Shown: in pieces, positions 8,858-19,420 of the stretch
Layout of the letters: every line of letters begins with the position of its first letter
How positions within the stretch are numbered: position 1 is the first letter of the stretch
Origin: a virus
IMG/VR virus record: IMGVR_UViG_3300031162_000483
Location: 1 to 21,518 of that record
DNA: 21,518 nt
Direction: 5' to 3' (one strand)
Notes under the pieces: generated by a model
Database searches by the model: none
Told to the model about the DNA's origin: nothing
What the model saw: the letters and a program-made list of their open reading frames with translations, nothing else
Translations under genes and position numbers: made by a program

Positions 8858-9280
8858 ATGGCTTATTCAAAAGAAGTAGTAGATAGATTCGAAGCAGTTC
8901 TCAAAGATCCTGCTAAACATTCAGTTGGTAGATTTGATCCGAATGATTCTACAGTTATCTCTGGTATGGTCGGAGCACCATCTTGTGGTGATGTAATGAA
9001 GTTGGATATGAAAATGAATGGTGATGTTATAGAAGATGTGAAGTTTAAAACATATGGTTGTGGTTCAGCGATAGCCTCAAGTACTATGTTTGTAGAAATG
9101 TTAAAAGGTAAAACTATTGAAGAAGCTAAACAGATTAAAGATAAAGATATAGCTGACGCGTTACAGTTACCACCAATCAAATTACATTGTTCTGTATTAG
9201 CAGAAGAAGCTATTAAGAAAGCTATATCAGATTACAATCCTCAGATAGGACACAACAACCCACCAAAACTTGACAACTGA
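8858..9280 (+). CDS. iscU: IscU-type Fe-S cluster assembly scaffold
   Basis: A close homologue of bacterial IscU, the scaffold on which 2Fe-2S clusters are built from IscS sulphur before transfer by HscA/HscB. All the key residues are present: SGMVGAPSCGDVMKL with Cys43 and Asp45, YGCGSAIASS with Cys68, and LPPIKLHCS with Cys111; LPPIK (104-108) corresponds to the HscA-recognition LPPVK. The first 127 residues align end to end with E. coli IscU. The last 13 are an extra tail containing IGHNNPP, a short motif I recall from unrelated phage and proteobacterial proteins. It has a late promoter match upstream, and promoter P3 lies in its last codons. In a phage this is an auxiliary metabolic gene that may sustain or redirect host Fe-S assembly. 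No iscS or hscA is nearby. Confidence 0.95.
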   Translation: MAYSKEVVDRFEAVLKDPAKHSVGRFDPNDSTVISGMVGAPSCGDVMKLDMKMNGDVIEDVKFKTYGCGSAIASSTMFVEMLKGKTIEEAKQIKDKDIADALQLPPIKLHCSVLAEEAIKKAISDYNPQIGHNNPPKLDN

Positions 9281-9795: not shown

Positions 9796-10400
9796 TGACG
9801 AGTAGAGAAGGATTCGATGCCTACTGTTTGTACTTAGCTATTAACAATCATTTTAATACAGAGTCTTATGACTTCTTCAAGTACAACGGTAAAGTACCAG
9901 TAAAGTTACCAGCGTTTCTAAAAAGAAATGACAAGTATCATTTTGCTAAGTTAGCTAGAGAACATAGAGATGAACTTAAAGATTTTCTAGTCGCTAACTT
10001 ATCTAAACAGAAATACTATGTAAAGAATCTTTTAGATAATGAATGTATTGATAATTATAAAGAGTTTAAAAAGAAGAAACAGAAATTGACATACACTATT
10101 ACAGAAGATATGAGATATTTGTATGACAGGTATGACACTTTAGATGATGTCTTAGAAGTACAGAAAGGTCAACATAGTGTCATACTTAAAGAATTCTTAG
10201 GTAAGAATATACAACCTGAAACATTCATAGCGTTCGATAATATGTTTGGTATCTTTGAAGACTATGATGAAATGATACAAGAACAATTCATTTGGCCGAA
10301 GATAAAAATAAGATTAAATAAATTAAAACCGTTCATAGAATATGAACCACAAAAAATAAGATTAGTAATGAGAGGGATATGGCTACAGCCTACATCATAG
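9795..10400 (+). CDS. gp59: DNA helicase loader, gp59-like
   Basis: A T4 gp59 homologue by its N-terminus (REGFDAYCLYLAINNHFNTESYDFFKYNGKVPVKLPAF), size (201 residues; T4 gp59 is 217) and position between gp33 and gp32. gp59 binds fork DNA and gp32 and loads the gp41 helicase. The protein is all-alpha looking, basic, with aromatic clusters and no zinc site. It starts on the last base of the bS21 stop codon and overlaps the next gene by 22 bases, so its translation is coupled on both sides. Confidence 0.85.
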   Translation: MTSREGFDAYCLYLAINNHFNTESYDFFKYNGKVPVKLPAFLKRNDKYHFAKLAREHRDELKDFLVANLSKQKYYVKNLLDNECIDNYKEFKKKKQKLTYTITEDMRYLYDRYDTLDDVLEVQKGQHSVILKEFLGKNIQPETFIAFDNMFGIFEDYDEMIQEQFIWPKIKIRLNKLKPFIEYEPQKIRLVMRGIWLQPTS

Positions 10401-11104
10401 GTAACGGTCCAAGTAGAGCTGATGTATCTTTACATACATTAGAAGGTACTACATTTGGTTGTAATGCTTTGTATAGAGACTTTGCACCTGACTATTTGAT
10501 ATCTGGTGATTCTACTATCATCAAAGAGATTTGTAAATCAGATTACCCAAGTCATAGTAAATGTATCTTTCCGGACTTTGATCCTGTTCCGAAAGATTAT
10601 AAAGAAATGATTCTTATGGGATTCGATCCGTCTTTCACTATTAAAGAATCAGATTTAGACAGACATAATAATGTCTGGATATTTGGACTTCAAGATGATA
10701 TCTCAAAGATCATGGAAGTTCATGTCATAGGTGTTGATCCATCATGGCAAATACAGAATATGAAAGGTACAGAAGAAGACCCTAGATTTAGTGTTAACTT
10801 CTTTGCCGGAAGTCAAGCTATGGCTCAGGCTTCTATAATGGGTTTTGATGAAGTGTGTCTTGTAGGTTTCGATTCTATATGGAACTTTCAAGAGAATACT
10901 TATCAGAATATCTATGCTGGTACTAACGCCTATAAAAGAGAGAAAGAAACTTCTCGCTTGAGGGTTGGAACTAGTGATCCTAACTCACTATTAGGAACAC
11001 AAGAAGCACAGATAAAGAAAGTGATTGACACATTTGAAAATGTCGATTATACTATATACTATGAAGGAAATAAAAAACCTTTAGAATATAATAGTTTTAC
11101 ATAA
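10379..11104 (+). CDS. DUF115/GT42-like Rossmann-type protein
   Basis: 241 residues. The N-terminus has GNGPSRADV (8-16) and TFGCNALYRDFAPDYLISGD, the opening of DUF115 (MAF/MptE-like) and CstII-type (GT42) sialyltransferase folds. Further along, FAGSQAMAQASIMGFDEVCLVGFDS (about 141-165) matches the second nucleotide-site segment of these families (SG..A...A..LGF..I.L.G.D). Known members transfer sugars such as pseudaminic or sialic acid to flagellin or LPS, or make pterin precursors. In this phage it could alter host surface glycans or DNA-linked sugars; this is inference. It begins 22 bases before the gp59 stop, and AGAGGG lies just upstream. It interrupts the usual gp59-gp32 adjacency. Confidence 0.65.
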   Translation: MATAYIIGNGPSRADVSLHTLEGTTFGCNALYRDFAPDYLISGDSTIIKEICKSDYPSHSKCIFPDFDPVPKDYKEMILMGFDPSFTIKESDLDRHNNVWIFGLQDDISKIMEVHVIGVDPSWQIQNMKGTEEDPRFSVNFFAGSQAMAQASIMGFDEVCLVGFDSIWNFQENTYQNIYAGTNAYKREKETSRLRVGTSDPNSLLGTQEAQIKKVIDTFENVDYTIYYEGNKKPLEYNSFT

Positions 11105-14163: not shown

Positions 14164-14361
14164 TTATCTCCTCATTTTTTGTTCGTGAGCTTTTTGTCTT
14201 TGCTCTTCTTCTTCTAAATATTTCATTAGAAGTTGAACATATACTTCCCTCTCCCAGGGTATCATATTGTTCAGTTCTGTTAAACTGTACTTATGATGTT
14301 GCATTAAACCGAAGTTTGTATGAATTAAATTATATAGACTTTCATGAGAGAGGGCTAGCCG
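14164..14361 (-). CDS. gp51: gp51-type -1 frame extension of gp26 (tail chaperone-like)
   Basis: Read in the -1 frame from the slippery site at the end of gp26, this gives 65 residues: RLALSHESLY, NLIHTNFGLM, QHHKYSLTEL, NNMIPWEREV and then YVQLLMKYLEEEE with a basic end. The pattern (H...F.LM..H.YSL.EL..M.PWER..Y..LL..) is that of gp51/tail-chaperone T segments. The only ATG (14304) would give 46 residues, has no Shine-Dalgarno site and would drop the conserved LIHTNFGLM part. So I read it as a gp26-gp51 fusion of 299 residues (234+65). T4 gp51 is an essential hub-assembly factor. An independent start at 14304 is the alternative. Confidence 0.7.
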   Translation of the reverse strand, partial: RLALSHESLYNLIHTNFGLMQHHKYSLTELNNMIPWEREVYVQLLMKYLEEEEQRQKAHEQKMRR

Positions 14362-15062
14362 AAAAAATTTCCGATTCCCACTAATTCATATGAATTATTC
14401 TCATTACATTTTTCACAATCATAACTTCCATTAATTCTCAATGTTTTGACATTAACAAAGAACGCTTGAATCTTTTCAAACATATCTAAAGACATGCTAT
14501 CTAAGAAATTCATTAGTTCTTTCTCTGTGAAATCATCTCTAGTATGAATCTCATCTCCGTCAATAATTGAATTAATACATTTAGCTACAACTTCAAAAAT
14601 TACTCTTGGGTCCTCTGAATTGTTTAAATTTACTGAATTAACAACTTGATAACTCGGTACATTTAAATCTATACTAATAGTGTCTGTAACTTTAACTACA
14701 TGATCTATTACTTGTTCAGGTTCCTTTACAATGGTTTGTTCTAACTGTACTGTAACTTTATTAAGTTCGTTACAATTATTACATTCCATTTGTATATCAG
14801 CTGTTTCACCAACTGATTTAATTCTTAATTGTAAAAATAAATATTCTAAATCAATAGTAGCTAAATCTTTAGCATCTATATCATCACAACATATATCAAT
14901 CAATCTAATCATTTCACTAATTTGTTCATTAGTGTTTTCTGATTCTTGTGCTACTAATAACACTTTTTGTTCACCAACTAGAAACGGTCTATAAGTGACT
15001 GTTTCACCAGATGATGGTAAGACACAACTATGTTTAGGTGTGTCAAGTACTGGTAACGCCAT
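14355..15062 (-). CDS. gp26: baseplate hub/tail chaperone protein, gp26-like
   Basis: 235 residues matching the T4 gp26-type baseplate family (T4_baseplate, PF12322 as I recall): MALPVLDTPKHSCVLPSSGETVTYRPFLVGEQKVLLV, then IDLEYLFLQLRIKSVGE (70-86). Two CxxC pairs (Cys94/97, Cys216/219) probably bind a zinc ion. T4 gp26 was listed as a hub subunit, but the baseplate structure suggests an assembly role. The end of the gene carries a U-UUU-UUC slippery heptamer (14361-14367) two codons before the TAG; a -1 shift gives a longer gp26-gp51 product. GAGGAAA precedes the start. A weak late-like CTAAATA lies upstream on the minus strand (15097 to 15091). Confidence 0.85.
   Translation of the reverse strand: MALPVLDTPKHSCVLPSSGETVTYRPFLVGEQKVLLVAQESENTNEQISEMIRLIDICCDDIDAKDLATIDLEYLFLQLRIKSVGETADIQMECNNCNELNKVTVQLEQTIVKEPEQVIDHVVKVTDTISIDLNVPSYQVVNSVNLNNSEDPRVIFEVVAKCINSIIDGDEIHTRDDFTEKELMNFLDSMSLDMFEKIQAFFVNVKTLRINGSYDCEKCNENNSYELVGIGNFFG
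14361..14367 (-). promoter_or_regulatory. candidate -1 ribosomal frameshift site T TTT TTC
   Basis: In the gp26 frame the codons read AAT TTT TTC GGC TAG, so T-TTT-TTC is a classical X-XXY-YYZ heptamer. After slippage the ribosome reads CGG CTA GCC and stays open for 65 codons. GGCTAGCC just after it is a perfect palindrome; no other strong stem was seen. Confidence 0.65.
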
Positions 15063-15102: not shown

Positions 15103-15705
15103 CTATCCGAACAACTTATCATTTACTTTCTTATCAAGTTTTGATCTTATATTTCTCATCTTCTTCTTAAACAATCCACCCAGTAATCCACTAGGTGAAT
15201 TATCGAATGTTGAAGACCAAGTTCTGAATGTAAACTCAACATCAAATGTTTGTACAGTAGTAGTCTCTGCTGTAAACCCTACACCTGATACATTCGTTGG
15301 AAAAGCTTCGTGTAACTCTACAGAATAGATTGGTATATTGTCAACACCTAACTGTTCTATTTTTACTTGACCATGATAAGTCTCAGGATATTGAAGATTG
15401 TATGCTTCATCATACATAAAACTCTGCCAGAGTTCCATCATTTGTTTATCTTCGTAAGTTGTATCTAACATAAATGTACAAATAACTTTATTTTCGTATT
15501 CTATACCTGTTACATATTCTCTATTGGGTGTAGCTCCACCGTAATTTTTAGCTGTTGTTACCATAGTCTTACCAGGTGTTGATACAGCTGTACATCTAAG
15601 ACCTCTACTTCTCATCTGTAGTGACTTGGGTCCTCGAATCTCTACATTGAATCTATCACTTCTACTCATAGAATCCATATGATTCATAAATCTGTTTATG
15701 TTCAT
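15103..15705 (-). CDS. gp54: tail-tube-fold protein, gp54-like (baseplate tube initiator)
   Basis: 200 residues with a gp19/tube-type domain over about 15-165: RFNVEIRGPK near the start, then beta strands with KVICTFMLDT, a YEDKQMMELWQSFMY helix, and VEFTFRTW at the end. The basic C-terminal tail (GGLFKKKMRNIRSKLDKKV) is not found in the main tube protein gp19. Tube-fold proteins gp48 and gp54 cap the baseplate and start tube polymerisation; the nearby gp48 and gp53 genes favour gp54. It is larger than T4 gp19 (163) but smaller than T4 gp54 (320). AGGAG precedes the ATG and it abuts the next gene upstream (shared position 15705). Tube fold sure, exact name less so. Confidence 0.7.
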   Translation of the reverse strand: MNINRFMNHMDSMSRSDRFNVEIRGPKSLQMRSRGLRCTAVSTPGKTMVTTAKNYGGATPNREYVTGIEYENKVICTFMLDTTYEDKQMMELWQSFMYDEAYNLQYPETYHGQVKIEQLGVDNIPIYSVELHEAFPTNVSGVGFTAETTTVQTFDVEFTFRTWSSTFDNSPSGLLGGLFKKKMRNIRSKLDKKVNDKLFG

Positions 15706-16283
15706 TAAAATTTACTCCTACTTTCATTCCAGACTGTATTCTTATCAACTTTTCTAAATGATTCTGTTGGTAAGAAGATAGCTATTTCCCAGTCAGCTGG
15801 TTCTATTAATAATAATGGTGATTGTATTTGATTACTCAAATAATGTTTTAAACATGGTTTAAAGAATCTCATTTTTGATGTACTCTTTAAAAGTTGATAA
15901 GTTACATTCATTTTTGTTGTTCTATCGTATTTGTCATTGTTCGTAATGTCATATAACTCATCTAAAAATTGGGCCCTAATTAAAGGGTGTAAGTAATGTA
16001 AATTAAGTCCATAAAAACCACCTTTGGCTTTTTGAACAGGGATACATAATGGAAACCTATCATAGTATGGTAATGTCGCTTTTGTCTTTGGATCATATTG
16101 AAAATTATACATTGACCCATATACTTGTCGTGATCGTGTTGGACCATCTCCAATCAAAGCGGCGCGAGAGACTTTTCTGTTACTTACTGTGGAACGAAAC
16201 CATTCCATTGAAGCTTTTGTTCGAGCGGCTATACCAGCTCTGAACGCTTCTTGTTCAAGTTTGTCGAATAGTCTCCCTGCCAT
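15705..16283 (-). CDS. conserved T4-like marine phage protein (192 aa), unknown role
   Basis: The protein has a basic helical N-terminus, then YDPKTKATLPYYDRFPLCIPV and GFYGLNLHYLHPLIRAQFLDELYD, a pattern I recall as conserved in many T4-like marine phages. FKPCLKHYL and LLLIEPADWEIAIFLPTESF follow. I do not know the function with confidence. Lying downstream of the gp4 gene on the same strand, it might correspond to gp2 (DNA end protector), which neighbours gp4 in T4; this is synteny only. No Shine-Dalgarno site is obvious, only GAG-like bases. It runs into the gp54-like gene with one shared base. Confidence 0.75.
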   Translation of the reverse strand: MAGRLFDKLEQEAFRAGIAARTKASMEWFRSTVSNRKVSRAALIGDGPTRSRQVYGSMYNFQYDPKTKATLPYYDRFPLCIPVQKAKGGFYGLNLHYLHPLIRAQFLDELYDITNNDKYDRTTKMNVTYQLLKSTSKMRFFKPCLKHYLSNQIQSPLLLIEPADWEIAIFLPTESFRKVDKNTVWNESRSKF

Positions 16284-16295
16284 TATTATAAACTC

Positions 16296-16916
16296 TTAAA
16301 ATTTATGAGTGAAATGTAAAGACACAGCGTCTCCAAATTCAACTTCACTTTCTTTAACATCACTCATTACAAGTAATCCTAGAGTCATGCTGTCAGATAA
16401 AGACCAGTCAGCTTTTAACATCTTAACTTCTCTACCATCAGACCATTCTCCAAGTTCTAAGCTGACATCAGCCCATGAAATGAAAGGTAAACCAATATTA
16501 TACCATTCATAATCCATGTCTAAGTCAACACCTTCAGCTTTACCGTATGAGAAAGATTCATATCCGACTTGCCAGATTCTTTCTTCAAAATCTAATCCAT
16601 CAGAATTATCTCCACTATAACGATAAGCTATATATTCACCATTGAACCAGAAACCTGATTCGAATGATTTTGTGAATCCACCGTAAAAGTCAGATTCTAA
16701 CTCTCTATCACCGTCGATATCAACGCTTGAGTTCCAGTTACCTATATAAAAACCTTGACCAAGGTCTTGTTCTATACCAAAGTTCACTGCTAGTCCATGA
16801 TCAGATTGTGTTTGACCACGCCACATATAGTCAGTGCTGATTCCAACATGACCACTCATTGCTAATGTAGATGTACTCAATAGTACACTACTTAATAATA
16901 CTAATAATTTATTCAT
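16296..16916 (-). CDS. outer-membrane porin, TorF/TIGR02001-like
   Basis: Signal peptide MNKLLVLLSSVLLSTSTLA with cleavage probable after Ala19. The mature part is a 187-residue beta-barrel with alternating aromatic and polar strands and Asp/Ser/Gly turns, ending in an outer-membrane-type terminal HFTHKF (C-terminal Phe). GHVGISTDYMWRGQTQSDHGLAVNFGIEQDLGQGFYIGNW (22-61) is a strong hallmark of the bacterial TIGR02001/TorF putative porin family. So this is a host-derived envelope gene in a tail operon. AGGAG precedes the ATG and a late-type CATAAATA lies about 60 bases upstream, so it is made late. It may change uptake or receptor availability, or block superinfection; none is shown. Size is typical for the family (about 200-230). 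Confidence 0.88.
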   Translation of the reverse strand: MNKLLVLLSSVLLSTSTLAMSGHVGISTDYMWRGQTQSDHGLAVNFGIEQDLGQGFYIGNWNSSVDIDGDRELESDFYGGFTKSFESGFWFNGEYIAYRYSGDNSDGLDFEERIWQVGYESFSYGKAEGVDLDMDYEWYNIGLPFISWADVSLELGEWSDGREVKMLKADWSLSDSMTLGLLVMSDVKESEVEFGDAVSLHFTHKF

Positions 16917-16973
16917 ATATTCTCCTATTTTATTTGTATTAACATTATAAAATACATAATGTAGTTTAAATAG

Positions 16974-16981
16974 TATTTATG
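16974..16981 (-). promoter_or_regulatory. late-promoter-like CATAAATA, upstream of the porin
   Basis: NATAAATA match on the minus strand in the spacer between the gp4 stop and the porin start, giving a leader of about 50 bases ending in AGGAG. This is a sensible place for a separate late promoter. Confidence 0.5.
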
Positions 16982-16985
16982 TCAC

Positions 16986-17441
16986 TTAGTAGATGTTTAT
17001 ATCTTTTTCTGTAAGAATTCTCCATTTCCACTTACGATCTTTACAATATGACATAGCTTGAGTCCATTTAGCTTCATTTACCATATAAGTTTGTACTTCT
17101 TTAAGATATCGCTTAGATGTTCTACCTGTCTTTGTAAGTTTCTTCTTTGGATTGGGTGGTGAACATTGACTAAAGGGTTTAACTTCAATCAGTTCTTCTA
17201 CTATCATGCCTTTTGAATTCCGATACTTCATATAGAAGTCTGGAAAGTATCTGTGCACACGATTGTCTACCGGTGATACATAAGGTATAATGATTTCTTC
17301 CGATCCCCATTTAAGTACTGAAGGATTATTGTCTAAGTACACCATGAATCTACGCTCTAATAATGAACGATAAATAATGTTACTAGGGTTTCCTTTGTAC
17401 TTATTTGGATTCTTCGGTCTAAACTTTCCTTTATAAGACAT
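16986..17441 (-). CDS. gp4: head completion protein, gp4-like (TnsA-like nuclease fold)
   Basis: 151 residues, matching T4 gp4 (151) in size. It carries a TnsA/PD-(D/E)XK-like core: a Glu at 29 (YRSLLERRFM), RYFPDFYM with Asp68, and EELIEVKP with Glu86 and Lys88. Basic N-terminus (SYKGKFRPKNPNKYKG) for DNA. T4 gp4 completes heads after packaging, with gp2 and gp50 as partners; loss gives heads that do not join tails. Whether it cuts DNA is unknown, but the core residues are intact here. It is the first gene of the minus-strand block, divergent from gp48 with only 33 bases between. Confidence 0.82.
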   Translation of the reverse strand: MSYKGKFRPKNPNKYKGNPSNIIYRSLLERRFMVYLDNNPSVLKWGSEEIIIPYVSPVDNRVHRYFPDFYMKYRNSKGMIVEELIEVKPFSQCSPPNPKKKLTKTGRTSKRYLKEVQTYMVNEAKWTQAMSYCKDRKWKWRILTEKDINIY

Positions 17442-18679: not shown

Positions 18680-19420
18680 ATGGCACAAGGATTTTTTAAA
18701 AATATACCAAATATAAACTATGATTTCAATAGTGACGGAAAGTTTTTTGAAGCTAAGGATTTATTCCGTAAAGTTTCAGTATGGAGTTATCTACAAGAAG
18801 GTGTCTCTGGATATAACTACTATCGTATAGCAGATGGAGAAAGACCTGATGCATTAGCTTCTAGGTTGTATGGTGACGGTACAATGTATTGGACATTCTT
18901 TTTAGTCAATGAAAATTTACAAGACTTTAATGATTGGCCTATGTCACAACAATTATTACATAAATTTGTAAATAGAAAATATTCAGGTACTGTATTAGAA
19001 GCTTCTAGTTCAACAGACATAGTTTCATTTAATCATGATACTAATGTTTCGAGTAAGTTTACATTAGGTGAAAAAGTATCTCAATCATCATCAGGTGCTT
19101 ACGGTTTCGTTACTAAAATTGATCCGACACATAATAGAATAATATTAAATAGTGTACAAGGTACATTTACAAACAATACAGTTGTTGGTAGTGATTCAAC
19201 TAAGAGTTTTACTGTAACTTCTGTAATTGATGAAAAAGACGCTGTACATCATTATACAGATTCTAATGGATTACTTACTACTGTACCTACAAACAACACA
19301 CCAGTTTCTAATGAGAAATACGAAAGAGATTTAAACGAAGAAAGACACTTAATAAGATATATTGAACCGAAATACATAGGTACTATTGTTAGTGAATTTA
19401 AAGAAATAGTAAGAGACTAA
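18680..19420 (+). CDS. gp53: baseplate wedge protein, gp53-like
   Basis: 246 residues. The first 110 match gp53: FFKNIPNINYDF, VSVWSYLQEGVSGYNYYRIADGERPDALASRLYGDGTMYWTFFLVNENLQDFNDWPMS, i.e. the LysM-like domain that clamps wedges together. T4 gp53 is 196 residues; the extra length is a beta-rich insert at about 125-190 (GEKVSQSSSGAYGFVTKIDPTHN...). The end (HLIRYIEPKYIGTIVSEFKEIVRD) resumes the gp53 pattern. The insert resembles small Gly/Val beta modules found in other marine phage structural proteins. It sits two bases after gp48 and three before the hub gene, as expected of a baseplate operon. Confidence 0.88.
   Translation: MAQGFFKNIPNINYDFNSDGKFFEAKDLFRKVSVWSYLQEGVSGYNYYRIADGERPDALASRLYGDGTMYWTFFLVNENLQDFNDWPMSQQLLHKFVNRKYSGTVLEASSSTDIVSFNHDTNVSSKFTLGEKVSQSSSGAYGFVTKIDPTHNRIILNSVQGTFTNNTVVGSDSTKSFTVTSVIDEKDAVHHYTDSNGLLTTVPTNNTPVSNEKYERDLNEERHLIRYIEPKYIGTIVSEFKEIVRD

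Follow-up and report, generated by a model that had tools for sequence, protein, structure and literature searches.

Phage-borne outer-membrane porins as such are already known, and several described systems come close to the gene reported here. A published viral cassette, glnK-amtB-ompL, places an outer-membrane porin gene beside amtB, as do some of the marine phages considered below; its porin is OmpL, however, its genes were traced to Bacteroidetes and amtB precedes the porin (PMC8115048), whereas the porin comes first in the phage contigs L095 and L146 and has no adjoining amtB in the window, i.e., in the whole 21.5 kb IMG/VR virus record analysed, which carries T4-type genes. Among bacteria, the TorF protein of S. 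oneidensis is listed as a porin of the TMAO system (PMC5955497). Regarding phage genome records, a convincing TorF porin was found in one Acinetobacter lineage only. The T4-sized phage AB1I1M-1 (168 kb; L016) encodes a porin of the same Pfam family, which is only 33.7% identical to the window protein, over 39% of the latter, and which differs also in lying in an accessory region, beside a UTP-glucose-1-phosphate uridylyltransferase gene. In the porin tree it falls on the bacterial side with a long branch, and it is probably an independent gain. Matches under the name "Acinetobacter phage MD-2021a" were rejected as phage, since they look like bacterial contigs. The outer membrane protein of Aeromonas phage phiAS5 (E1A206) is a predicted barrel of similar size (TM-score 0.60, 10% identity). 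The open-access literature searched yielded no example of a putatively late, TorF-type porin that is kept at a single site throughout a marine T4-like clade and has been acquired at several further sites.

The porin gene and its setting

The porin and its neighbours, all on the minus strand, are listed in the order in which they are read:

16986..17441 (-), gp4-like head closure protein with a TnsA-like endonuclease domain (phrog_218, E 4.3e-58; PF08722), upstream neighbour
16973..16981 (-), late-type promoter CATAAATAC, shortly downstream of the gp4 stop
16941..16961 (-), inverted repeat ACATTATG...TATAATGT, which may form a hairpin close to the 5' end of the porin transcript
16921..16926 (-), Shine-Dalgarno AGGAG before the porin ATG (position within a base or two)
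16296..16916 (-), open reading frame of the TorF-type outer-membrane porin, 206 aa, ATG start, complete; predicted parts: signal peptide at about 1-19, 12-strand barrel 20-206, C-terminal Phe206
15705..16283 (-), gp2 DNA end protector (phrog_429, E 5.3e-55), downstream neighbour
15103..15705 (-), gp19-like tail tube protein (phrog_45, E 2.3e-28)
14355..15062 (-), gp26-like baseplate hub protein (PF12322, E 1.7e-53)

That this open reading frame encodes a phage porin is well supported. Its scores exceed the curated cut-offs of both TIGR02001, the TorF family putative porin (E 1.3e-21, 77.3 bits, cut-off 47.15), and PF09694 or Gcw_chp (E 1.2e-15, 58.6 bits, cut-off 24), the best-scoring stretch of the TorF-family profile match being residues 16-128 only; no PHROGs family matched it. 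On reading, the N-terminus displays the features of a Sec signal peptide (K3, a hydrophobic stretch and TLA at 17-19), and A19 is kept in 17 of 18 phage porins. The AlphaFold model, computed with 16 phage homologues (pLDDT 85.6, pTM 0.76), predicts a helix at residues 2-19 and 12 strands, with the first barrel strand starting at residue 20. Phe is the last residue, as in 17 of the 18 phage homologues. The complete signal peptide, TIGR02001/TorF-type barrel and terminal Phe claimed by the first-pass annotation are hence all retained, the first two as predictions, and the combination expected of the family (barrel, signal peptide and C-terminal aromatic or hydrophobic residue) is predicted to be present. 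Moreover, the window porin bears the conserved residues of the TorF family: eleven positions are invariant across 18 phage and 29 bacterial proteins (Y30, R33, Q37, Y57, E74, D76, G80, Y98, Y100, E112 and G156).

With the bacterial family, phage porins share the profile match, the loop-1 motif Y-x-x-R-G-x-x-Q (G34 in 28 of 29 bacterial proteins), E74, D76, E112 and an acidic character. They are, however, shorter (199-215 aa, against mostly 210-260 among the bacterial ones compared), lie behind a late-type promoter and form their own branch. Loop 1 (residues 28-42) is the most conserved extracellular element, common to phage porins and bacterial TorF, and loops 3, 4 and 6 vary more. The mature window porin has a net charge of -24; such a strongly acidic porin fits a cation preference, as acidic residues facing the lumen would favour cations. 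By fold, the solved structure nearest to the model is KdgM (4pr7; Z 17.0, rmsd 2.7 over 163 residues, 10% identity), followed by two other 12-strand channels, VhGalP (Z 15.5) and NanC (Z 14.8). The model has the 12-strand monomeric barrel of KdgM-type porins, a likeness of fold only: no sequence in the PDB matched the window porin profile at E <= 1, Pfam and NCBIfam give TorF only, and assignment as a KdgM porin was rejected for want of sequence kinship. KdgM, NanC and VhGalP channels take acidic sugars, as stated in part by the titles of their entries; the window porin is itself strongly acidic.

The porin is placed between two head-completion genes, gp4 and gp2, the latter being the 192-residue gene of the first-pass annotation, which had rightly called this place unexpected. 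The "tail operon" to which it had assigned the gene is in fact mixed (gp4 and gp2 of the head, gp19 and gp26 of the tail). The same position had been suggested as worth searching for in other marine T4-like phages, and the order gp4-porin-gp2 was indeed found, by a gp2-based search and a profile scan, in 35 IMG/VR contigs besides the window; another six are cut by a contig end. Among the contigs found through gp2, a porin precedes gp2 in every informative one whose gp2 is at least 73% identical to that of the window, except L042, and no porin was found in more distant ones. In L042, a close relative, gp4 and gp2 lie 21 bases apart by their aligned ends, and in Phage C48C1, Stenotrophomonas phage DLP_6 and Sinorhizobium phage phiM12 both genes are adjacent or nearly so, without a porin.

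Elsewhere in the window, on the plus strand, positions 8858-9280 hold an IscU/NifU-like iron-sulphur scaffold gene (PF01592), which is also present in Phage C48C1 and adjoins the porin in L188. Positions 10379-11104 encode a 241-aa protein with no Pfam match, between gp59-like and gp32-like genes, and positions 18680-19420 encode a gp53-like wedge protein, a later stretch matching DUF5074 and a tail fibre family.

T4 late promoters have the consensus TATAAATA. Exact copies of TATAAATA in the window are no commoner than chance, so that support for the promoter comes from its conservation across loci and not from a motif count: the core ATAAATAC is identical in all gp4-gp2 porin loci compared (19 sequences aligned). 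As ATAAATAC follows the gp4 stop, and stands directly before the gp2 start in the porin-less L042, the porin sits between a late-type promoter and gp2. Its late use would be expected from T4 biology and the motif. The porin also has its own leader and Shine-Dalgarno sequence, which agrees with the late-type promoter and ribosome site initially described. Within the leader, between promoter and ribosome site, the inverted repeat keeps its place across loci and has changed in sequence. A hairpin is predicted at about the same place in seven of eight folded leaders, weak against shuffles by single-sequence z-scores, and the repeat may serve as a hairpin in the mRNA leader or as a site bound by protein.

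Selection and exchange of porin alleles

The porin is under purifying selection. All 27 gp4-gp2 porins examined read through with no premature stop, dN/dS is mostly 0.1-0.3, and the dN/dS analysis gave no sign of positive selection. The histories of the porin and of its flanks differ, porin alleles having moved between phage lineages. The porins of L003 and L005 are the same except at about two sites, with gp2 74-85% and gp19 60% identical, whereas the window and L020 are about 90% identical in gp4 and gp2 and only about 50-60% in the porin. A clade uniting the window, L005 and L020-L023 is rejected on porin data (p 2e-7), and one uniting the window, L005, L003, L007 and L008 is rejected on gp4 and gp2 data (p 6e-51). 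Since each allele combination occurs in several contigs from different samples, chimeric assembly is unlikely. In another pair, L024 and L026, tail genes have been exchanged around a constant gp4-porin-gp2 core: these three genes are 98-100% identical, gp19 60-63% and the stretch before gp4 about 60%. As gp19 and the gp48 side have been exchanged too, the pattern corresponds to ordinary T4-type mosaicism and is no proof of special selection on the porin, for which no special diversification is claimed.

Related porins and the amtB neighbourhood

In marine T4-like contigs, related porin genes were found at five or more further positions, two of which lie immediately ahead of amtB:

L095, 3675-5460: porin after gp55 and 25 bp before amtB (gp55-porin-amtB)
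L146, 4350-6170: porin 12 bp before amtB, between SbcCD-like and exonuclease phage genes
L147, 4077-5897: porin-amtB arrangement as in L146
L188: porin between an IscU-like gene and a tail tube gene, amtB about 4 kb on
L097, L099 and L274: porin after peptide-deformylase-like and oxygenase-like genes (named by eye from the sequence)
L101 and relatives: porin after nrdB

A related porin gene is thus linked to a nitrogen transporter gene in L095, L146 and L147, and porin and amtB also lie on one record in L188, in a 129 kb record whose porin is at the deformylase site and in a 110 kb record. A 29 kb phage contig (G1117) holds two different TorF-like porins (L276:3495-4121 and L146:4350-4988), one of them beside amtB. 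On the gp4-gp2 contigs of the window clade that were searched for amtB, all of them fragments, none was found. Viral amtB is common in this contig collection (the Amt query gave matches in 180 viral contig stretches), and a porin lay within the fetched stretch at 4 of 80 phage amtB loci only.

Some bacterial members of the family adjoin amtB, as do these phage relatives. Among 40 bacterial TorF loci, drawn mostly from top-scoring matches, five had an Amt gene in the retrieved sequence, 10.6 kb at most in total, where chance would give 0.1-0.3 (P 1e-7 to 2e-5); four of the five have a P-II signature. In both of the two best-matching genomes of the G001 class, TorF is followed by amtB on the same strand, and their Amt is about 50% identical to the phage Amt of L095. 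The other 35 loci had no Amt nearby; the family is therefore not confined to ammonium.

Regarding the host, phylogeny with bacterial TorF proteins had been expected to reveal its identity. It named none: the marine phage porins group apart from the bacterial proteins, with an SH-aLRT of 86, short of the 95 mark, in a tree whose bacterial sample is limited (29 proteins). A single-sequence scan of genome contigs found no close homologue of the window porin, and an alignment scan gave two matches, 35% identical over part of the protein, in Pseudaquidulcibacter and a Hyphomonadaceae MAG. The best bacterial score was 115 bits among 398 genomes of the G001 phylum, 385 of the G001 class and 369 of the G350 class. 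With the phage porins on their own branch and no close bacterial homologue, host naming from phylogeny was dropped.

Possible roles of the phage porin

We propose, with a probability of about 0.5, that the window porin is a late phage cargo (auxiliary) gene for the uptake of small, mainly cationic nutrients, e.g., ammonium. Late in infection, the phage late-transcription machinery would read the gene from the ATAAATAC promoter, the product would be exported by Sec with loss of its signal peptide, and the host BAM machinery would insert it in the outer membrane, folded to a TorF-type channel of 12 strands. During virion production, such a channel would maintain or increase the entry of small nitrogen nutrients of cationic or zwitterionic character, above all ammonium, across the host outer membrane, and in some related phages its inner-membrane partner would be an AmtB encoded by the phage itself. 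It speaks against this reading that a late stage of infection is not an obviously favourable time for raising uptake. Among the roles put forward by the first-pass annotation, altered uptake gains indirect support from the repeated amtB neighbourhood; nothing specific was found for hiding or flooding of a receptor or for a block of superinfection.

Superinfection exclusion is the main rival, and we consider it rather unlikely. By hiding, replacing or mimicking the phage receptor, a late porin could keep related phages from injecting or reduce the binding of released virions to debris. Phage PA-2, for instance, encodes the Lc porin, which alters host porins. An outer-membrane protein encoded by a phage is consistent with such a role, and so are the passage of its alleles from lineage to lineage, which would be expected were surface types important, and the greater variability of loops 3, 4 and 6 compared with loop 1. 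However, the conserved loop 1, common to bacterial TorF, fits a channel loop rather than a decoy, positive selection has left no sign, and in L024 and L026 neighbouring tail genes are swapped as freely, so that exchange is not special to the porin. The amtB link, moreover, is left unexplained by exclusion. A role in lysis or egress, in which the porin would loosen or mark the outer membrane together with late lysis genes, agrees with the late-type promoter and is quite improbable: the predicted fold is that of an ordinary channel, nearest to KdgM and NanC, nothing in it resembles a spanin or holin, none of the adjacent genes is a lysis gene, and the residues common to bacterial TorF are preserved.

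That the porin is a structural protein of the virion could be suggested by its position between head-completion genes, behind a late-type promoter; this is very improbable in view of its signal peptide, its barrel with a C-terminal Phe, its membership of the TorF family, the near relatives (L042, L012-L014) that lack it and have gp4 and gp2 adjacent or nearly so, and the related porins at unrelated places in other phages. Finally, a functionless hitch-hiker, or bacterial DNA joined to phage contigs by assembly, might be considered as all marine records are metagenomic contigs, and is already contradicted by the same junction in 36 contigs, by intact frames with dN well below dS and by a phage-specific branch in the tree.

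Returning to nutrient uptake, the phage probably remodels the host outer membrane, most likely to admit small nutrients. A broader proposal, which we advance tentatively and hold to be doubtful as it stands, is that, in bacteria and marine phages alike, TorF barrels form the outer-membrane half of an ammonium route completed by AmtB. T4-like phages would have acquired, relocated and exchanged this half, and a viral outer-membrane channel would bring ammonium into infected cells where seawater is poor in nitrogen. Should the uptake reading be right, marine T4-like phages would change the permeability of the host outer membrane, beyond inner-membrane and enzymatic auxiliary genes, and would encode this change in one constant genomic position under a late promoter. 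The Gcw_chp/TorF family, large in bacteria and of unknown substrate, would gain a testable function as the channel partner of AmtB, and models of viral effects on ocean nutrient uptake would gain an outer-membrane step.
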